The notes under the pieces: model-generated
Databases searched by the model: none
What the model was told of the DNA's origin: nothing
The model's input: the letters and a program-made list of their open reading frames with translations, nothing else
Made by a program: the position numbers and the translations under genes
Assembly (NCBI GenBank): GCA_945870105.1
Contig: CAMBRL010000013.1
Location: 1-42,749 of the forward strand
Reading direction: 5' to 3'
Length of the DNA stretch: 42,749 bases
DNA from: Chitinophaga pinensis
Lineage (GTDB): Bacteria; Bacteroidota; Bacteroidia; SXHM01
Part shown: positions 2,168 through 32,905 of the stretch, piece after piece
How the letters are laid out: each line of letters begins with the position of its first letter
How positions within the stretch are numbered: position 1 is the stretch's first letter

Positions 2168-2896
2168 TCATCGTGTTAATACTATATAATCATTCAGCAG
2201 CGTTTTCAAAAAAGCAATTTTATCTTTTGGTATTTCTGCAATATCTAAAACATCGCGCAGTTTCTGCACCAGCATATCCAGTGCTTCTTTGTGTGCTGTG
2301 TTGTTATATTTTTTGGTGCGTTCAATCACTGATTTTATCAGCAGCATATCACTCTCGCTCAGTCCGCGCACCTGAGGATATTTAGGCTCGTAATTTTCAC
2401 GCGTGTTGATGCGCAGCACATCCGCAATTTCAATGTTTAATGATGAGCGCGTTTTAATAACTGTAGTATGTGCCAGCATATCGCCAAGTCTTTGTCCGCG
2501 CACAGTAGAGTTCACCAGCACCGCAGCAATAGTACCTGACGAAAACCAGATGTCAACCAACCGGAAAGCCCAGCGAATCAAATAATCACTTATCACCGGT
2601 TGCTTGCCGTTTAGCTTTGCCACTTTTATACCAATTGCTTTTTTACCCAGTGATTGTCCGTTCATCCAAATCTCACTTGCAGGCGAATAAAATAGGTAGA
2701 TAGGAAGTATAACCAGGTACATAAAATAGTTGATGCTGTCTAATCCAAAAACCCACATCCAGAAAAGGTAAAGAAGCAGTATAGAAAAATTCAGAATCCA
2801 GAAATCAAGGAAGAATGCAAAGAAGCGATCGCGAAACGAAGCGAGCTCATATTCAATGGTTACATTCTGGGTGGTGGTTATTTCTATCGTTCGCAT
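2168..2896 (-). CDS. RDD family integral membrane protein
   Basis: The 242-residue protein has an RDD domain in its first ~155 residues. The start region contains FRDRFFAFFLDFWILN, and the second signature is SLGKKAIGIKV followed by IRWAFRLVD. Two or three hydrophobic helices lie between about residues 30-75 and 120-135. The C-terminal ~90 residues are soluble and charged. RDD proteins are of uncertain function; some relatives affect ion or solute tolerance. No MoxR, SpoIIM or DUF58 neighbour is present, unlike many Bacteroidota RDD loci. It is divergent from the secreted TPR-like gene. Confidence 0.85.
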   Translation of the reverse strand: MRTIEITTTQNVTIEYELASFRDRFFAFFLDFWILNFSILLLYLFWMWVFGLDSINYFMYLVILPIYLFYSPASEIWMNGQSLGKKAIGIKVAKLNGKQPVISDYLIRWAFRLVDIWFSSGTIAAVLVNSTVRGQRLGDMLAHTTVIKTRSSLNIEIADVLRINTRENYEPKYPQVRGLSESDMLLIKSVIERTKKYNNTAHKEALDMLVQKLRDVLDIAEIPKDKIAFLKTLLNDYIVLTR

Positions 2897-2918
2897 CGGT
2901 GCGATAAAAGTAAAAAAC

Positions 2919-2926
2919 TATTTTTG
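2919..2926 (+). promoter_or_regulatory. Candidate -7 promoter element
   Basis: TATTTTTG matches the Bacteroidota TAnnTTTG consensus exactly and ends 17 bases before the ATG at 2944, which predicts a very short leader. Confidence 0.45.
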
Positions 2927-2943
2927 CGCTTCACAAAAAATAA

Positions 2944-3696
2944 ATGATGAACTACTTTTTACCTTTTGCATCTTGTCTCTTACTTCTTGCATTTGACTTA
3001 TCAGCGCAAGTAATCGGTGGCGAACTAGTTAAACTCGAAGAGCTTTACGACAAAGGCAAATTCGAAGACTGTGCCTACAAAGCTGAGACCTATACCGAAA
3101 GCGAGAAGTATGCAAAAAATCCTGAGCCTTACCTCTACATCAGCATGTGTTATTACGAGTTTCATTTCTCTGAAGACGCCAAAATAAAAGAGTATTACAA
3201 ATCTGCTCTGAAAGATGCGTTGAAACATGCCGTGAAAATGAAAACCTACGACAAAGAATTAAATTTCTACAAAGACAACAGCGAGTATTTAGACAAACTT
3301 CGTCAGACTTGTCTGGAAGAAGCAAAAGCCCTGGTTGACAAAAAAGATTACAGCAAAGCATCATCTTATTACTACAAGCCACTGGTAAAATTAGACCCCG
3401 ATAATTTTGAGTTGCTGTTTATAAAAGGCGTGTGCGATGCCCTTATGCGCAATGGAAGCGAAGCTTACAAAAGCCTGAACGATGCTATGCCGCAACTTGA
3501 AAAAATTGCAAATGAAGGAACTTACAAAGCGCCAAAACTTATTGAAGCATCGCTTTCAGATGCATTTGTAAATTACTCAACTTTACTAAAAGACCAAAGC
3601 TATGCCGACTCGGCAAAAGCAATAATCATGTTCGGAAAAATTCTTCTGCCCGTGGATAAGGCAGTAGATGAACAGTATAAAAAGTTCACCAACTAA
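2944..3696 (+). CDS. Secreted TPR-like protein of unknown function
   Basis: The 250-residue protein starts with a signal peptide (MMNYFLPFASCLLLLAFDLSA, likely cut after LSA). The mature part is helical, with repeated patterns such as KLEELYDKGKFEDCAYKAE, PEPYLYISMCYYEF and EAKALVDKKDYSKASSYYYK. These look like degenerate tetratricopeptide repeats, which usually hold protein complexes together. A periplasmic or outer-membrane-facing scaffold role is an inference. Two ATG codons occur back to back at 2944 and 2947; either could start. It ends at a bidirectional terminator shared with the convergent haloperoxidase gene. Confidence 0.78.
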   Translation: MMNYFLPFASCLLLLAFDLSAQVIGGELVKLEELYDKGKFEDCAYKAETYTESEKYAKNPEPYLYISMCYYEFHFSEDAKIKEYYKSALKDALKHAVKMKTYDKELNFYKDNSEYLDKLRQTCLEEAKALVDKKDYSKASSYYYKPLVKLDPDNFELLFIKGVCDALMRNGSEAYKSLNDAMPQLEKIANEGTYKAPKLIEASLSDAFVNYSTLLKDQSYADSAKAIIMFGKILLPVDKAVDEQYKKFTN

Positions 3697-3753: not shown

Positions 3754-5298
3754 TTATTTCTTTACCAATGTTTTTGAAACCATTGCCCCTTTGCTAAGGT
3801 CATATGCATTAACAGCATAAACACCGGAAGCAAAGTCTGAAATATCCATTCTGCCTGTTGAAGAAGTATTAACAGCAACCTGCTGTCCCATCATGTTATA
3901 CACCTCAAGACGGTCAATTTTAAAACCTTTGCTATAAAAATTAACCACATCACTTGCAGGGTTAGGATACATTTCAAATATGAAACCATCAGTGTTATTA
4001 TCTGCAACACCAACAGCTAAGCCTGCGAATAAGTCGTTGATATTTTCACCGATTTCTCTTCCCATGGTAAGACCGGTATTGTTCCCAAATTCAAAGTGAA
4101 TGCCACCATAAAGTCTTGAAACGGCTGCTTCTTCTGCTGCCTCATCAAAATTGTTGTATGAGCGCGGACCACCAAAATTAGTTCCGTGTGTGCTGTCAAT
4201 AAACGCATACGAAGTTCCGTAAAGAGATTCCATAATCTCGCTCATAGCACCTGATTGTGATGAGTGTCCGCTCGAATACTCAGGGAAAGGAGGCGTTCCG
4301 ATTAAAGCAACCCACGCATTATCAATGTTGTCTTGTATATAGGTTACTGGACGTGTGCAATTATAGATATACTTGGTTTTCCAGCACGCAAGAAAAGCAT
4401 CTGAAAGAGCAATTCCCATTTTTGCATACGCAATAGCAGCAGTTTCAAGGTTTGCATTTTCGTGACGAAGAATATTACGCAACATATAAATGCTATGTCC
4501 TGGAGGTGATATACTTCCACCGCCATCAGCCCAATATTGAGCTATGGAAACCTGATCTGATGTATTGTTATTTACCTGATAATATACCTGATAGGCATAC
4601 GCATAAAAAGCAGAATTAATATCAGTAGAAAAAGCTGGAGGAGGGCCTGGAATAACACCGGTTGTATCATCCGTTACAAACGGGCGATGACTTCCCCAAT
4701 AAGGTTGCATTGCTACTTGAGCACCAAAAGCTTCCCACATGCCGGGACCAACCGGAGGAACATAACTTCCCGGGAAGTTAGCAGTATAGCCAAGGTGGCC
4801 GCCATCCGTTTTTGAGAACTGAAAAATGTCATTGGCAATTGCTTCACCAAATGATTTTGAATCATTGAAATCCCCTGTAGGAATTTGACCCTGAAAAAGG
4901 GTGTTGTAGTAATCACGGATATCATGCAGCGAATCTTTGTTTAGTTGCGTGGCATTCCCAAAAAGGCTATCCATAACGGCAGCCATAGCATTATTAACTA
5001 CAGTGGGCCAATGGTAATTTGCATTTCCATCGGGAGCTGTTAATGAAGTAAGTTCAGGAATTGCTCCAACCGTTGATGTCATTGAAGGAATACCTGGAAC
5101 AGTAGATTCATACAAAGCAAGGCCGGTAAAGCCTAATGCACGCGAAATTACAGGAGGCGTAAAGCCCGGAGTTTCTTTAATCAACTTTGCTCCAAATCCA
5201 AAATAGTGATTTGGCACAGTAGCATCATACGTGCTTGCATCCTGAGCCTGAGCTAAGGAAAAAGAAGCAGTACAAATAATAAGTAATAGTTTTTTCAT
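3754..5298 (-). CDS. Vanadium-dependent haloperoxidase homologue (PAP2 superfamily) with T9SS sorting domain
   Basis: Predicted secreted enzyme that would oxidise halides with peroxide at a vanadate centre, or act as a related acid phosphatase. I start at 5298, giving 514 residues, because MKKLLLIICTASFSLAQAQ is a good signal peptide; an upstream ATG at 5325 adds 9 residues and weakens it. Numbered from this start, the known active-site set is present with the spacings of the fungal chloroperoxidase: K309 and R316 (KYIYNCTR), S343-G344-H345 (PEYSSGHS), R395 and H401 (RLYGGIH). The last ~70 residues (MYPNPASDVVNFYS to the final KTLVKK) are a type A T9SS sorting domain, so the product is likely surface-bound or released. 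Confidence 0.87.
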   Translation of the reverse strand: MKKLLLIICTASFSLAQAQDASTYDATVPNHYFGFGAKLIKETPGFTPPVISRALGFTGLALYESTVPGIPSMTSTVGAIPELTSLTAPDGNANYHWPTVVNNAMAAVMDSLFGNATQLNKDSLHDIRDYYNTLFQGQIPTGDFNDSKSFGEAIANDIFQFSKTDGGHLGYTANFPGSYVPPVGPGMWEAFGAQVAMQPYWGSHRPFVTDDTTGVIPGPPPAFSTDINSAFYAYAYQVYYQVNNNTSDQVSIAQYWADGGGSISPPGHSIYMLRNILRHENANLETAAIAYAKMGIALSDAFLACWKTKYIYNCTRPVTYIQDNIDNAWVALIGTPPFPEYSSGHSSQSGAMSEIMESLYGTSYAFIDSTHGTNFGGPRSYNNFDEAAEEAAVSRLYGGIHFEFGNNTGLTMGREIGENINDLFAGLAVGVADNNTDGFIFEMYPNPASDVVNFYSKGFKIDRLEVYNMMGQQVAVNTSSTGRMDISDFASGVYAVNAYDLSKGAMVSKTLVKK

Positions 5299-10027: not shown

Positions 10028-10043
10028 TGTAACAATGGTTACA
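10028..10043. promoter_or_regulatory. Crp/Fnr-type dyad upstream of cytochrome c peroxidase
   Basis: TGTAAC-AATG-GTTACA is a perfect 6-base dyad with a 4-base centre. It is centred about 42 bases before the start predicted from the TATTTTTG element at 10065-10072. That is the class II activator position for Crp/Fnr-family regulators. The core GTAAC-N4-GTTAC resembles sites I recall for HcpR-like or Fnr-like proteins. Confidence 0.55.
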
Positions 10044-10064
10044 TAGATTAACCAAAACAGATAC

Positions 10065-10072
10065 TATTTTTG
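10065..10072 (+). promoter_or_regulatory. Candidate -7 promoter element for cytochrome c peroxidase
   Basis: TATTTTTG is an exact TAnnTTTG match ending 20 bases before the ATG at 10093. No -33 TTTG is present at normal spacing, which fits activator-dependent use with the dyad at 10028-10043. Confidence 0.5.
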
Positions 10073-10092
10073 AAATCTCAAAATCTATAACA

Positions 10093-11148
10093 ATGAACAA
10101 ATTCAATTTGCATTTTATCGCAGTAATTTCTGTTGCTGTTTTTCTAAACAGTTGTTCTTCGCAACCGGAACAAAAACAGGAAGCAAGCACCGAAAATGAA
10201 GAAGCAAAAATTGATGCGGAAATAAAACCTCGCCTGTCTGCTTTTGCTGCATTACCCGCAGTTGCAGAAAATCCTGAAAATCCGATTACGGAGGCAAAAG
10301 TAAAACTGGGTCATGCTTTGTATTTTGACACGCGCTTATCAAACGCAGGAAAAATCAGTTGCAACTCCTGCCACAATCTGGAAACATTTGGAGTGGATAA
10401 TTTACCAACCTCGCCTGGTGATGCCGGAAAAAATGGCGACCGTAACTCGCCCACTGTATTAAATGCTGCATTGCACACCACCCAATTTTGGGATAGCCGC
10501 GCAAAAGATGTGGAAGAGCAAGCGGGAATGCCGGTTTTAAATCCTGTGGAAATGGAAATTCCTGATGAAGCATTTTTGATTAAACGCCTTTCTGCAGTTC
10601 CTGAATACAAGCAACTTTTTAACGAAGCTTTTCCGGGAAAAGGAATTACGTATGAAAACATGCGCAAAGCAATTGGTGCGTTTGAGCGCAAATTGATAAC
10701 ACCTTCGCGCTTTGATAAATACCTTGCCGGTGATAATACCGCACTCGCATTAGAAGAGAAAAAGGGTCTGAACAATTTTATAAAAATCGGTTGTACCACC
10801 TGTCATAGCGGTGTTGCTCTAGGGGGAAACATGATGCAGAAATTTGGTGTTCATCGCGAGTACTGGACATTGACCGACAGTAAGAAGATTGATGAAGGTA
10901 AAGCAGCCCTGACCAAAGAGGAAGGTGATAAATATATGTTTAAAGTACCATCGCTGCGCAATGTGGAAAAAACGTATCCTTATTTTCATGACGGCAGTGT
11001 TGCTGATTTGAAAAAAGCAATTCAGATTATGGCTGTTGCTCAATTAGCTTACCGCATGAGCCCTGAAGAAATAAATTCGATTGAAGCATTTTTAAAATCG
11101 CTGACAGGAGATATTCCGGCAGAATTTAAAAAAAAACCTGCACTGTAA
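10093..11148 (+). CDS. Di-haem cytochrome c peroxidase (CcpA/MauG family) lipoprotein
   Basis: Reduces hydrogen peroxide to water with electrons from periplasmic cytochromes. The 351-residue protein has a lipoprotein signal peptide with LNSC and C21 as the lipidated residue, so it is membrane-anchored. Two haem c sites are visible: C90-N-S-C-H94 and C234-T-T-C-H238. The family segments GDRNSPTVLNAA, QFWDSRAKDVEEQA and VPSLRNVEKTYPYFHDG are all present. It stands alone with its own promoter and a Crp/Fnr-like site. Its stop codon directly abuts that of the convergent cysN, leaving no spacer for a terminator. A catalytic, non-MauG role is likely but unproved. Confidence 0.9.
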   Translation: MNKFNLHFIAVISVAVFLNSCSSQPEQKQEASTENEEAKIDAEIKPRLSAFAALPAVAENPENPITEAKVKLGHALYFDTRLSNAGKISCNSCHNLETFGVDNLPTSPGDAGKNGDRNSPTVLNAALHTTQFWDSRAKDVEEQAGMPVLNPVEMEIPDEAFLIKRLSAVPEYKQLFNEAFPGKGITYENMRKAIGAFERKLITPSRFDKYLAGDNTALALEEKKGLNNFIKIGCTTCHSGVALGGNMMQKFGVHREYWTLTDSKKIDEGKAALTKEEGDKYMFKVPSLRNVEKTYPYFHDGSVADLKKAIQIMAVAQLAYRMSPEEINSIEAFLKSLTGDIPAEFKKKPAL

Positions 11149-12414
11149 TTACTGAATCATTCCCGCAGCAACTGTTTCGTTGGTTCCTTCGTCAATGAGA
11201 ATAAGACTTCCGGTGATGCGGTTGTTTTTGTAGCTGTCTTTGAACAAGGGCTTGGTCGTGCGCAAACGTGCGTGAAAAATATCGTTCATTTTCACGCTTT
11301 TGTCTTCCTCAACTTTGTTGAGTGTGTTGATATCAACCTTGTAATTTATTTCTTTGATAACAGCTCGTGCTTCATTGCTGGTGTGCTTCAAAAAATACTT
11401 TGCACCGGGTTGTGGCGATTTATTATTGAGCCAGCATAACATTGCATCCACGTCTTGTGTACTTTCCGGTGGATTTTCTTTTTTCACGAGCATATCACCG
11501 CGACTAATGTCTATCTCATCTTCCAACGTAATGGAAACCGACATAGGTGCGAACGCTTCATCCAACGCACCATCCAGAGTTGCAATGGATTTTATTTTTG
11601 AAGTAAATCCCGAAGGCAATGCAACTACTTCATCACCCGGCTTAAAAATTCCTCCAGCAATTCTTCCGGCATAACCGCGATAATCATGGTATTCATTTGT
11701 ATGCGGACGAATAACATATTGCACCGGGAGACGTGCATCTTCATGATTCCAGTCACTGCCGATGTGTACATTTTCAAGTGTATTTAAAAGTGGGGAACCT
11801 TTGAACCAATCCATGTTAGTGGAACGGTCAACCACATTATCGCCATCCAGCGCAGAAATAGGAACAAACTCAATATCCTTAACATCTAACGTTGCTGCAA
11901 ATTTTTTGTATTCGGCAACTATGCGGTTGTAAGCTTCTTCGCTGTATTCCACCAGATCCATTTTATTTACGCATACAATAAGGTGTGGAATTTTTAACAG
12001 CGATGCAATGAAGGAATGACGACAGGTTTGCTCAATCACACCTTTGCGCGCATCAATTAAAATTAGCGCAAGATTGGCGGTTGATGCGCCTGTAATCATG
12101 TTGCGAGTGTATTGAATATGCCCGGGTGTATCGGCAATAATGAATTTGCGTTTGGGTGTTGCGAAGTAGCGATAGGCAACATCAATGGTAATTCCCTGTT
12201 CACGCTCAGCTCTTAATCCATCTGTCAAGAGTGAAAGGTCAATATGCTGTAATCCTTTTTTTTCACTTGATGCTTTTACTGCATCTAACTGGTCTTCAAA
12301 AATTGATTTCGAATCATATAACAATCTTCCGATGAGTGTGCTTTTGCCATCATCAACAGAGCCTGCAGTTGTGAACCTCAAAAGTTCCATGTCCAAATAT
12401 CCTTGCGTATCCAT
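11149..12414 (-). CDS. cysN: Sulfate adenylyltransferase subunit 1 (GTPase)
   Basis: GTP-hydrolysing subunit of ATP sulfurylase; with CysD it makes adenosine 5'-phosphosulfate from sulfate and ATP. From the ATG at 12414 there are 421 residues starting MDTQGYLDMELLRFTTAG. I reject the ATG at 12438 because it lies in a dispersed repeat. GTPase motifs are GSVDDGKST (18-26), DTPGH and NKMD, followed by the elongation-factor-like beta-barrel domains. It is not fused to CysC, unlike NodQ-type proteins. It is third in the operon cysC-cysD-cysN, 66 bases after cysD, with a palindromic repeat in the gap. Confidence 0.94.
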   Translation of the reverse strand: MDTQGYLDMELLRFTTAGSVDDGKSTLIGRLLYDSKSIFEDQLDAVKASSEKKGLQHIDLSLLTDGLRAEREQGITIDVAYRYFATPKRKFIIADTPGHIQYTRNMITGASTANLALILIDARKGVIEQTCRHSFIASLLKIPHLIVCVNKMDLVEYSEEAYNRIVAEYKKFAATLDVKDIEFVPISALDGDNVVDRSTNMDWFKGSPLLNTLENVHIGSDWNHEDARLPVQYVIRPHTNEYHDYRGYAGRIAGGIFKPGDEVVALPSGFTSKIKSIATLDGALDEAFAPMSVSITLEDEIDISRGDMLVKKENPPESTQDVDAMLCWLNNKSPQPGAKYFLKHTSNEARAVIKEINYKVDINTLNKVEEDKSVKMNDIFHARLRTTKPLFKDSYKNNRITGSLILIDEGTNETVAAGMIQ

Positions 12415-12424
12415 TTCATTTTTT

Positions 12425-12476
12425 ACCACTAAGAGCAAAAATTCACTTAGTATTCTTGTGAACTTAGTGGTGAATT
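12425..12476. repeat. Palindromic repeat of ACCACTAAG type between cysD and cysN
   Basis: ACCACTAAG (12425-12433) pairs with CTTAGTGGT (12463-12471), and AATTCAC (12440-12446) pairs with GTGAATT (12470-12476). TTCAC/GTGAA inside gives a further alternative stem. It overlaps the upstream, probably unused ATG of cysN. The ACCACTAAG word recurs as a dispersed repeat in many environmental genomes by my recollection. Confidence 0.7.
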
Positions 12477-12480
12477 ATTT

Positions 12481-13386
12481 TTAAAAATATCCTGATTTTT
12501 TTCTGTCCTCCATTGCCGCTTCGCTGCGTCTGTCATCTATTCTGCTTCCGCGTTCTGTTACTCTGGTTGCAGCAACTTCTTCAACAATTTCTTCTGCTGA
12601 GTTTGCAGTGGATAACACTGCGCCCGTGCAACTGATATCACCAATGGTGCGAAAACGTACCTGCATTTTCTCAACCTTTTCAGTTGGTTTAAGAGGAATA
12701 ACATTTGCATGCGCATAAATTACTCCCTCTCTAACAAAGCACTCCCGTTCATGCGTAAAATACAACGAAGGCATTTCAATTTTTTCGTGCAGAATGTATT
12801 GCCACACATCCATCTCGGTCCAGTTGCTGATAGGAAATACACGAAAGTGTTCACCAATATGTTTTTTGCCGTTGAAAATATTCCAGAGTTCAGGTCTTTG
12901 GTTTTTGGGGTCCCACTGACCGAACTCATCGCGGTGCGAAAAGAAGCGTTCTTTGGCTCTTGCTTTTTCTTCGTCTCTGCGGGCTCCGCCTATGCAGGCA
13001 TCAAATTTGTATTTCTCAATTGTGTCAAGCAGCGTAACCGTTTGCAAAACATTGCGACTTGCGTTGTAGCCTTTTTCTTCTGTCACTCTTCCGCTGTCTA
13101 TACTTTCCTGAACAGAGCCTACTATTAATTGTGCTCCGTATTTTTTTGCAAGGTTATCACGGTAAACAAGTGTTTCTTCAAAGTTGTGTCCCGTATCAAC
13201 ATGTACTAAAGGAAAAGGAATGTTTGCAGGAAAAAATGCTTTTCGTGCCAGATGAAAACACACAATACTGTCCTTCCCTCCCGAAAAAAGCAGTGCCGGT
13301 TTTTCAAACTGCGCAGCCACTTCGCGAATAACAAAAATGGATTCGGCTTCTAATTCTTTTAAATGTGACAGTTGATACGTGTTCAT
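12481..13386 (-). CDS. cysD: Sulfate adenylyltransferase subunit 2
   Basis: Catalytic ATP-pyrophosphatase-type subunit of ATP sulfurylase, partner of CysN. At 301 residues it has the usual length. The PP-loop SGGKDS is at residues 35-40, followed by the conserved HVDTGHNFEET, GGARRDEEKARAKER and the KKSGYF C-terminus. Its ATG overlaps the cysC stop in an ATGA arrangement (13383-13386), which indicates translational coupling. No cysH, cysI or cysJ is nearby, so this window alone does not show whether the activated sulfate goes to assimilation or to sulfation. Confidence 0.95.
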   Translation of the reverse strand: MNTYQLSHLKELEAESIFVIREVAAQFEKPALLFSGGKDSIVCFHLARKAFFPANIPFPLVHVDTGHNFEETLVYRDNLAKKYGAQLIVGSVQESIDSGRVTEEKGYNASRNVLQTVTLLDTIEKYKFDACIGGARRDEEKARAKERFFSHRDEFGQWDPKNQRPELWNIFNGKKHIGEHFRVFPISNWTEMDVWQYILHEKIEMPSLYFTHERECFVREGVIYAHANVIPLKPTEKVEKMQVRFRTIGDISCTGAVLSTANSAEEIVEEVAATRVTERGSRIDDRRSEAAMEDRKKSGYF

Positions 13387-13955
13387 TTCTTCAGTTCAAT
13401 CTTAGGCAAAACATGTTCAAGAATTTCATTTACACATATTTCTAAATTCTGTAAATGTGTGTTCAATGTTAGTTCAGGATTGACAGGTGATTCGTAAGGA
13501 GAGTCAATTCCTGTAAAATTTTTCAGTTCACCTTTACGCGCTTTTTTATACAAGCCTTTTACATCGCGTTGCTCACAAACTTCTAAAGGACAATTGACAA
13601 ATACTTCTACAAATTCATCACCCATTAATTCGCGCACAATTTTTCTGTCGTCTGCAAAAGGTGAAATAAATGCAGCAATAACAACGGTTCCCGAATCAAC
13701 AAACAGTTTCGCAACCTCACCCGTTCTGCGGATGTTTTCTTTTCGTGCTTCTTCGGTGAACGATAAATCTTTATTCAATCCGGTTCTTAAAATATCTCCG
13801 TCTAATGTATAGGTATGAATATGCTTTGCAAAAAGTTGTTGCTCCAGCTCAACGGCAATGGTAGATTTTCCGGCACCAGAAAGTCCGGTAAGCCACACGG
13901 CAAGACCTTTGTGTCCTTTTAATTTGTTGCGTTGGTTCTTGCTTATGTTTTTCAT
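13383..13955 (-). CDS. cysC: Adenylylsulfate kinase
   Basis: Phosphorylates adenosine 5'-phosphosulfate to PAPS. The 190-residue protein has the Walker A loop GLSGAGKST at 24-32 and the family segments DGDILRTGLNKDLSF, ENIRRTGEVAKL and FVNCPLEVCEQRD. It is the first gene of the operon and overlaps cysD by 4 bases. An exact promoter element lies at 13964-13971, predicting a leader of only a few bases. A full activation pathway (CysDN then CysC) is encoded together. Confidence 0.95.
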   Translation of the reverse strand: MKNISKNQRNKLKGHKGLAVWLTGLSGAGKSTIAVELEQQLFAKHIHTYTLDGDILRTGLNKDLSFTEEARKENIRRTGEVAKLFVDSGTVVIAAFISPFADDRKIVRELMGDEFVEVFVNCPLEVCEQRDVKGLYKKARKGELKNFTGIDSPYESPVNPELTLNTHLQNLEICVNEILEHVLPKIELKK

Positions 13956-31528: not shown

Positions 31529-32905
31529 TTATTTTTTGTATTTATCTCCTGATGATTTCAAGATAGATTTCAATTCGGCCATTGCAATTACAGGGAATGT
31601 GCGGCAGAACAACAGGAACAGGGTAAAGAAAATTCCTAGGGTTCCGACAAAAATACCGATGTCAATAAACGTAGGGTGGAACATCACCCAACTTGAAGGC
31701 AGGTAATCGCGGTGCAGTGATGTTACAATAATCACAAAACGCTCGAACCACATACCGATGTTCACGAAAATAGAAATGATGAACGTAGCAACAAAACTTC
31801 TGCGCACTTTTTTAATCCAGAAAAGTTGTGGAGTAATAACGTTGCAGGTCATCATGCTCCAGTATGCCCACCAATATGGTCCGCTTGCACGGTTAAGGAA
31901 AGCATATTGCTCATACTCAACACCTGAGTACCAGGAAATGAAAAGTTCGGTTAAGTAAGCAACACCCACAATAGAACCGGTGAGGATGATGATTTTGTTC
32001 ATCGACTCAACGTGGTTCACGGTGATGTAGTCTTCAAGGTTTAATGTTTTACGTGCAATCAGCATCAATGTCAATACCATCGCAAAGCCTGAGAAGATAG
32101 CTCCGGCAACGAAGTAAGGCGGGAAGATGGTGGTGTGCCAACCCGGTATTACCGAAGTAGCAAAGTCCATAGATACAATGGTGTGAACCGAAAGTACCAG
32201 TGGTGTTGAAAGACCTGCTAGTACCAATGAAAGTTCTTCAAAACGGTGCCATGCTCTTGCGTTTCCGCTCCAGCCAAAGCTAAGAATGTTGTAAATCTTT
32301 TGTTGCAATGGTTTACCCATCCGCGCAAATTTGTCACGCACTGTTGCAAAGTCAGGAACTAAACCTAAATACCAGAAAACTAATGATACGGTAAAGTAAG
32401 TTGAAATCGCAAATACGTCCCAAAGCAATGGTGAGTTAAAGTTTACCCACAATGAACCGAATTGGTTCGGAAGCGGAAGTACCCAATAAGCTAACCAAAC
32501 GCGACCCATGTGAAACACCGGGAAAAGGGCTGCGCAGATTACCGCAAAAATAGTCATCGCCTCAGCTGAGCGGTTGATAGACATTCTCCACTTCTGACGG
32601 AACAGCAAAAGAACGGCAGAAATCAAAGTTCCTGCGTGACCGATACCGATCCACCAAACGAAGTTGGTGATATCCCATGCCCAACCTACTGTTTTGTTAG
32701 AGCCCCATACTCCGATACCTGTTCCTACGGTGTAAGCAAGACAACCTACTCCCCATAACATGGTAATGAAAGATACGGTAAATGCCATCCACCAGTATTT
32801 ATTAGCTTTTCCCGCGATAGGATAGGTAATATCTTCTGTAACCTGATGATAGTCCTTCTTCCCTATTATAAGTGGCTCGCGGATGTGTGCTTCGTGACTT
32901 GCCAT
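31529..32905 (-). CDS. actC: Alternative complex III membrane subunit ActC (NrfD/PsrC-like)
   Basis: Quinol-binding integral membrane subunit, 458 residues, about 10 helices, related to NrfD and PsrC. Recognisable segments: [60 protein letters not shown] and [18 protein letters not shown]. In known ACIII structures this subunit faces ActB and forms the quinol site and a proposed proton path. It follows actB by 28 bases. Confidence 0.95.

Follow-up and report, generated by a model that had tools for sequence, protein, structure and literature searches.

Control of cytochrome c peroxidase by proteins of the Crp/Fnr family is known from Fnr in E. coli and Anr in Pseudomonas. Fnr has an iron-sulfur cluster with N-terminal cysteines, and its operator is TTGAT-N4-ATCAA. 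The locus described here shares with these systems the regulator family, the class II position of the site and the kind of enzyme, but their operator and cluster are unlike our site and unlike SC-Crp, the protein that we propose to bind it (SC-Crp is a label coined here for a Crp/Fnr paralogue for which no published name was found). Sulfane sulfur is sensed by regulators such as CstR, of the CsoR family, SqrR/BigR, of the ArsR family, and FisR, a sigma-54 activator. Their targets, persulfide dioxygenase, rhodanese and TauE, overlap with those assigned below to SC-Crp, and cysteine-based sensing would be expected in SC-Crp too, but they belong to other protein families. In its available part, PMC9774590 names CstR, SqrR, FisR, OxyR, LasR and OhrR as sulfane-sulfur regulators, and a persulfidated Crp-like protein has been reported in Acinetobacter, with no consequence described in the available part of that paper (PMC7315123). 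The literature searched, in which coverage of subscription journals was limited, contained no sulfane-sulfur regulator of the Crp/Fnr type and no link between a cytochrome c peroxidase and a persulfide regulon.

The operator core itself, GTAACnnnnGTTAC, is that of the HcpR2 regulon, whose regulators are also Crp/Fnr proteins. According to the available part of PMC1274295, Arg180 and Glu181 of Crp/Fnr proteins are tied to two operator bases, and the HcpR2 motif, or GTAAC sites, to the loss of Glu181, a loss that goes with GTAAC in SC-Crp as well. Position 181 is Pro in the HcpR2 regulators, with Ser or Gln in rare cases, whereas SC-Crp has Val (or Glu) there; furthermore, the neighbouring targets of SC-Crp are sulfur genes, and hcp was not found in the seven genomes of the genus.

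The window, that is the whole stretch of 42,749 nucleotides that was analysed, contains on its forward strand a gene (10093..11148, ATG at 10093) for a di-haem cytochrome c peroxidase of 351 aa with a lipoprotein-like N-terminus. The protein has two CxxCH haem motifs (CNSCH and CTTCH) and a PF03150 domain (CCP_MauG, E 8e-57), and residues 47-349 gave their best structure matches to PDB 6qkn and 6fu3 (E 7e-95 and 8e-95); no NCBIfam model matched at its cut-off. The domain, both haem motifs and a near full-length match to solved bacterial di-haem peroxidases (6qkn, 6fu3 and 1eb7) mark the predicted product as a di-haem cytochrome c peroxidase of the usual kind. Compared with these enzymes it is unremarkable in itself, and what differs is its regulation. 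The peroxidase gene is convergent with a run of genes on the reverse strand (11149..13955) that we take to be cysN-, cysD- and cysC-like from their open reading frames and the GTP_EFTU domain in the first gene. A matrix scan of the window gave no matching dyad for this run. Where congeners have a close copy of the peroxidase (loci L021, L022 and L023), genes like cysN, cysD and cysC were also observed near it, as was an OmpA-like gene, which in L023 lies between the peroxidase and the cys-like run.

Upstream of the peroxidase gene, at 10028..10043 on the forward strand, lies the 16-bp dyad TGTAAC-AATG-GTTACA (TGTAACAATGGTTACA), an inverted repeat of two 6-bp halves around a 4-bp centre, which we predict to be a dimer site for a Crp/Fnr-family protein, SC-Crp. 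It is followed after 21 nt by TATTTTTG (10065..10072), which we take to be a -7 element of the Bacteroidota TAnnTTTG type. From this element the transcription start is expected at 10077..10078, so the centre of the dyad, 10035.5, would lie 42-42.5 nt ahead of the start and the operator near -41.5. The initial annotation had described a perfect TGTAAC-N4-GTTACA dyad about 42 bases before the predicted start, and this description was accurate. A scan for sigma-70-type promoters was uninformative in this phylum.

The perfect dyad occurs once in the window and once in the whole 3.6-Mb draft genome (G000), where a first-order Markov model predicts 0.003 and 0.26 copies, respectively; for the dyad followed after 21 nt by TAnnTTTG, the same model predicts about 0.0003 per genome. 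When up to one mismatch was allowed, the dyad alone was not enriched in the genome, 21 sites as compared to 21 for the reversed pattern, which is the one point in favour of a palindrome that has arisen by chance and has no function. The argument is thus carried by the promoter spacing and the conservation, and only the promoter-coupled form of the dyad is informative. Copies with one mismatch at 4663 and 5425 of the window were set aside, both lying within open reading frames, as was a site at 31721 that scored 14.5 bits in the matrix described below; a composite of dyad and promoter at position 3608 of contig C118 of G000 was left uncounted for the same reason.

Conservation was followed in a genus set comprising G000 and six congeners (G001-G006), all of them drafts. 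Close copies of the peroxidase were found in three of the six, with 91% identity in G003 (L021), 89% in G001 (L022) and 86% in G002 (L023), while the other three had distant paralogues only. All 12 bases of the dyad are kept in these three copies, with the centre changed to ATCG, GATG and AAGG, respectively, and the flanks are also much changed; the -7 element of L022 is TAAATTCG. The spacing was then compared in more distant homologues, by searching TGTNAYNNNNRTNACA with at most 2 mismatches at every gap from 0 to 69 before TANNTTTG with at most 1 mismatch. Out of 104 upstream regions 6 were duplicates, and of the 98 unique ones the four from the genus were not counted, leaving 94. A gap of 21 was the peak, with 19 homologues, and 24 fell at gaps 20-22, where about 2 would be expected from the other gaps taken three at a time. 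When TANNTTTG had to be perfect, the numbers were 10 at gaps 20-22 and 0.4 elsewhere, and the reversed dyad gave 1 of 29 in all at these gaps. Under this criterion 70 of the 94 homologues have no dyad. The peak nevertheless implies that the class II Crp-type architecture of the peroxidase promoter is widespread, and together with the 12 kept bases around a changed centre it makes a functionless palindrome hardly credible. The site, its spacing and its conservation can be read from the genomes directly, and on this basis the dyad is very probably a class II Crp-type operator. A Crp/Fnr-superfamily site at this position of the peroxidase promoter had been proposed in the initial annotation, and the gap of 21, the congeners and the homologues all bear it out.

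To find other promoters of this kind, the exact pattern TGTAAYNNNNGTNRCN{21,23}TANNTTTG was searched in the seven genus genomes, with a reversed pattern as control. It gave 13 matches in six of the seven genomes, compared with 1 in the control. Three of the matches belong to the peroxidase (G000, G002 and G003), five lie directly downstream of the Crp/Fnr paralogue SC-Crp (G002-G006), four belong to TauE/SafE genes (G000, G002, G006 and G003, the last at a contig end and assigned by sequence identity only) and one to a DUF6132-rhodanese pair (G006). Composites with up to 3 mismatches, which in bulk were only moderately above the control, also led to sulfur genes. Such weaker composites lie ahead of the gene for a metallo-beta-lactamase/rhodanese protein that resembles persulfide dioxygenases, where the gene was seen in G000 and G002 and sites also in G003, G005 and G006, and ahead of a DsbD-like gene, with a site in six of the seven genomes and the gene seen in G000, G001 and G002. 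The site of the DsbD-like gene in G000 (contig C41, 7274; L204, 2275) is TGTAGTTAATGTTACA, 21 nt before an element like TACTTTTG and 63 nt ahead of the gene. In the genus, the sulfur promoters have a weaker right half-site (GTTGCT, GTCACC) than the peroxidase. G001 and G002 have a further such composite, its dyad perfect or near-perfect, between divergent genes for tspO and a SAM-methyltransferase (L209, 1732 and L210, 4763), with a persulfide dioxygenase-like gene near. The initial annotation had suggested control linked to oxygen, nitric oxide or peroxide, to be checked by looking for further copies of the dyad before respiratory genes. The exact composites of the genus precede sulfur genes instead, which counts against the respiratory reading.

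The exact search was extended to 295 genomes of the class with TGTAACNNNNGTTACN{21,23}TANNTTTG, again alongside a control pattern, and 57 matches were obtained in 46 genomes, compared with 3 in the control. The gaps, confined to 20-22 by the pattern, were 21 in 42 cases, 22 in 13 and 20 in 2. From the 57 matches 30 loci were taken, 29 of which had a downstream open reading frame to examine. The first one was of a sulfur family in 15 of the 29: TauE in 6, persulfide dioxygenase-like in 5, and one each of YgaP-like, DUF6132 ahead of a rhodanese, rhodanese and SQR-like. The remaining 14 were of other or looser kinds, including a sulfate permease, a Cons_hypoth698 protein, two outer-membrane efflux proteins, an aldehyde dehydrogenase, a flavin reductase, hcp and unknowns. 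Where a family is named, the name is that of Pfam, and "persulfide dioxygenase-like", "SQR-like" and "YeeE/YedE" are our readings of those families; the persulfide dioxygenase-like protein scored 64 bits against the NCBIfam model of the Blh-type sulfur dioxygenase, far below its cut-off of 625. A predicted regulon of sulfur genes and the peroxidase, together with its site, is well supported by these comparisons, in which the content of the regulon is given by the matches themselves.

SC-Crp, a protein of 210 aa, is made up of a cNMP_binding and an HTH_Crp_2 domain, and it matches no NCBIfam model at its cut-off. In G006 it belongs to an operon with a small YgaP-like protein, a rhodanese, OsmC, a thioredoxin and a rhodanese-thioredoxin lipoprotein, where the YgaP-like protein and the thioredoxin were read by eye. 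The protein is complete in the five congeners G002-G006. In the window genome, contig C187 ends within the gene and leaves a 116-aa N-terminal fragment (92% identical) in which the cysteine motif is present and the helix cut off, so that the recognition helix in this strain is deduced from the congeners. SC-Crp was not found in G001, which is 68% complete and keeps the peroxidase dyad. A homologue scoring above 100 bits was counted by eye in 62 of 100 sampled genomes. Among 55 SC-Crp proteins Cys76 is invariant (55/55), Cys82 is present in 47 and missing in 8, and Cys83 is present in 42. Alignments with NtcA and with 3dv8 place the Cys76 segment at the position that we take to be the phosphate cassette for the cyclic nucleotide in CRP. 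The best PDB match is 3dv8 (E 7e-16), a solved structure of the Crp/Fnr family with cysteines opposite Cys76 and Cys82 in the alignment, but the relation is distant. In Lutibacter (L250, L260, L261 and L265), SC-Crp paralogues were observed near Sulf_transp-like genes; they keep Cys76, are without the CC pair and have a second paralogue close by.

The sites beside the SC-Crp genes have the same architecture as the one in the window. At 24 SC-Crp loci outside the genus, 17 composite sites were found at gaps 20-22 compared with 1.4 expected, with the peak at 21 among gaps of 0-59, while the reversed control gave 0 of 26 at these gaps. Further sites outside the genus, several of them perfect TGTAAC-N4-GTTACA dyads, lie ahead of SQR-like, persulfide dioxygenase-like and Sulf_transp genes. 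A matrix was built from 31 chosen sites beside non-genus SC-Crp genes, leaving out weak sites (L233, L245, L253 and L255) and near-copies (L237 and L269), and containing no peroxidase or genus site. The window dyad is the top 16-mer of the window in this matrix with 20.5 bits, where the training sites range from 9.6 to 22.9. Because the peroxidase dyad had suggested the pattern used to collect the training sites, this is an agreement and not an independent discovery.

The helix of SC-Crp, at positions 180, 181 and 185, reads Arg-Val-Arg in 29 proteins and Arg-Glu-Arg in 26, and the residue at 181 varies together with the fourth base of the site. For distinct sites beside SC-Crp, this base was G in 9 of 12 when residue 181 is Glu but in 2 of 18 when it is Val (Fisher 0.0012); for sites at the peroxidase, the numbers were 7 of 10 and 2 of 14, respectively (Fisher 0.010). 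The sampled genomes are related and shared ancestry is ignored, so these p-values are optimistic. The fourth base was N in the search patterns, that is, left free. The exceptions among the 24 peroxidase sites are five, L032, L038 and L106 with Glu and L070 and L090 with Val. Sites not included are L061, L059, L080 and G001, the last two having no SC-Crp, and the window's own site, where the helix is cut off. L107 was included, with a promoter 151 nt from its start and beyond the limit of the spacing test, the helix of L267 was assigned manually, and the close pairs L075/L078 and L098/L099 were counted separately. This covariation between residue and site, observed both at the regulator's own locus and at the peroxidase, points to SC-Crp as the probable regulator of the window dyad.

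Since the dyad equals the published HcpR2 motif (PMC1274295), the HcpR lead of the initial annotation was a reasonable one. Under such control, HcpR would activate the peroxidase through GTAACnnnnGTTAC upon nitrosative stress. HcpR2 control is plausible elsewhere in the class, where an exact composite lies just upstream of hcp in G077 (L310) and G037 (L311), and in the latter a Crp protein with the helix SRPSLAR (R/P/R) adjoins hcp. In the genus, on the other hand, a search of the seven draft genomes for hcp (PF03063) gave no match, and among 100 relatives it was found in 2. Pro181 occurs in none of the Crp proteins of the genus that were read. Two of these have Ser or Gln at this position, C31b (R/S/K) and C114 (R/Q/Q), but they are without Arg185, and neither is among the matches of G001 and G003. 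The exact composites of the genus precede sulfur genes. We regard nitrosative control of the peroxidase by an HcpR as very unlikely.

The other Crp proteins of the genus were surveyed as PF00027 matches, of which there are 35 in all, 8 in G000, 3 in G003 and 1 in G001. None of the 8 in G000 lies on C13, the contig of the window, and the earlier remark that no regulator gene is in the window is therefore true also for the PF00027 family. The helix could not be read in three Crp proteins, at G000 contig C14 and at G002 C7:44 (both interrupted) and at G000 contig C187 (cut). The types read at 180/181/185 were T/E/R (REC-Crp and C31a), P/E/R, Y/E/R, P/T/R, R/Q/Q (C114), R/S/K (C31b), R/E/R, R/E/F, R/V/R (SC-Crp) and R/G/R (the C5 protein of G000 and a copy in G006). 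Beside a set of cbb3-oxidase-type genes in G000 (contig C73, L197, 3971-8997), we observed a fusion of response-regulator, cNMP and HTH_Crp domains (REC-Crp, 351 aa, 12893-13948) and a kinase-like gene, an arrangement also found in L198-L200. The two could possibly form a two-component system that corresponds to FixLJ but has an output domain of the Crp kind. On contig C31 of G000 (L018/L019, 23300-25100), a hemerythrin-like gene near a molybdopterin gene is flanked by two Crp-family genes whose products have N-terminal CxxC...C motifs; one of the pair (T/E/R) looks Fnr-type, and the pair is among the PF00027 matches of G000, G002 and G006. A further Crp-family gene of G000 (L020, contig C14, 10827-11402), between moaA-like and ScdA/RIC-like genes, is broken by an in-frame TGA.

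Oxygen control of the Fnr type, by the C31 pair with its N-terminal cysteines or by the REC-Crp beside the cbb3-type genes, has in its favour that these proteins exist in G000, that REC-Crp is present in all four peroxidase-bearing genomes of the genus, and that the cbb3-type genes have Crp-type sites at the class II position ahead of them. The helices, however, are T/E/R (C31a and REC-Crp) or R/S/K (C31b), and T/E/R should read TTGA/TGAC. In agreement with this, the promoter dyad of the cbb3-type genes is TGAC-N4-GTCA (L197 and L200) or TGAC-N4-ATCA (L198), 21 nt before CATTTTTG, and not TGTAAC, and the site in G000 scores -2.4 bits with the SC-Crp matrix. REC-Crp was rejected as regulator of the dyad, as none of the four genus loci has a TGTAAC composite at the cbb3-type genes and the three that align have a different dyad. 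The window site does not match the Fnr operator TTGAT-N4-ATCAA, and no protein of the C31 type is among the PF00027 matches of G001 and G003, both drafts, which keep the dyad. Oxygen control by these proteins is improbable. Of the control proposed in the initial annotation, the Crp/Fnr site at the class II position stands, while Fnr or HcpR as its regulator is not supported, given the missing hcp and Pro181 and the T/E/R helices. SC-Crp, with its cysteines and its predicted sulfur targets, is more probable as the regulator than either of them.

It is also conceivable that another Crp protein reads the dyad, the C5 (R/G/R), C31b (R/S/K) or C114 (R/Q/Q) protein of G000 or one missing from the drafts, and that the sulfur genes and the peroxidase share the type of half-site and not the regulator. 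The draft genomes are incomplete, two Crp genes are interrupted (G000 contig C14 and G002 C7:44), the sulfur promoters have the weaker right half-sites, and no SC-Crp was found in G001. A second Arg / non-Glu / Arg helix is that of the C5 protein of G000 (L316), which has a copy in G006 (contig C4, L313). In both genomes, however, its frame ends at the recognition helix, and the counterpart in G002 (L314) is R/E/F, with none listed in G003. The three PF00027 matches of G003, which keeps the dyad, are REC-Crp (T/E/R), the P/E/R protein and SC-Crp, and neither there nor in the one match of G001 is the C5, C31b or C114 type found. As R/G/R is limited to G000 and G006, SC-Crp, which is R/V/R in G002-G006, is the sole Arg / non-Glu / Arg protein observed in G002 as well as in G003, the two congeners that carry the peroxidase and are more than 90% complete. 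The peroxidase is moreover linked to sulfur genes elsewhere, which speaks against a merely shared half-site, and another Crp protein as the reader of the dyad is unlikely.

This linkage is seen outside the genus. In L091 the dyad is followed by a persulfide dioxygenase-like gene and then by the peroxidase, and in L037 and L052 the peroxidase is part of a run of rhodanese, rhodanese, small membrane protein, peroxidase, thioredoxin and rhodanese; the end of a persulfide dioxygenase-like gene also lies upstream in L037. The run in L052 is headed by an ArsR-family gene (2851-3141), in a genome without an SC-Crp match, which suggests that one sulfur regulator has been replaced by another. We read the linkage as an indication that the peroxidase belongs to the sulfur response regardless of which regulator is at its head. 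Within the peroxidase loci L021-L124 no SC-Crp gene was found. Among 47 of 80 named peroxidase loci, with L059 left out as a poor match and L106 and L110 covered through the sample of 100 genomes, SC-Crp was present in 20 of 21 genomes with the dyad and in 21 of 26 without it, which is not significant (p = 0.20), nor is its co-occurrence with the composite across the class (p = 0.07); an explanation is that SC-Crp is so common. The Capnocytophaga locus L080 has the dyad in a genome without an SC-Crp above 100 bits.

Taken together, it is likely, on balance, that the peroxidase is activated from the class II position by SC-Crp upon sulfide or persulfide. In this model a dimer at about -41.5 would abut RNA polymerase on the TAnnTTTG promoter and turn on the periplasmic di-haem peroxidase. 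The activator would be SC-Crp, of about 210 aa, with the equivalents of Arg180, Val181 and Arg185 and with an invariant Cys, usually followed by a CC pair, at the position of the phosphate cassette. Apart from the peroxidase, SC-Crp would control persulfide dioxygenase-like enzymes, TauE/SafE exporters, rhodaneses, OsmC and thioredoxin, and also YgaP-like and Sulf_transp (YeeE/YedE-type) proteins and SQR-like enzymes. A thiol-reactive signal, either sulfane sulfur (a persulfide or a polysulfide) or something related to it, may modify the cysteines and thereby make SC-Crp active, and the peroxidase would be induced as a component of the response to sulfide stress. We infer activation rather than repression, the identity of the regulator in this strain and the physiological reason; sulfide or persulfide is a reasonably likely signal, judging by association with the target genes and by the cysteines. 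The widest form of the proposal, which we hold tentatively and with slightly more doubt than belief, is that SC-Crp is an undescribed sulfane-sulfur sensor of the Bacteroidota, in which the nucleotide pocket has turned into a cysteine switch (Cys76 with Cys82/Cys83), that it activates sulfide and persulfide detoxification via TGTRAY-N4-GTNACW about 21 nt before TAnnTTTG, and that the peroxidase is a genuine member of its regulon.

If this is true, the Crp/Fnr family would have provided a new solution to a task for which sensors are known in other regulator families, and one that is spread across a large bacterial group. It would also imply a direct link between sulfide stress and peroxide defence. 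The rule for operator and promoter, a dyad, 21 nt and TAnnTTTG, could then be used to predict the regulon in other genomes, and the covariation of Val or Glu with the site would be a DNA-reading code that is open to test by a single substitution.
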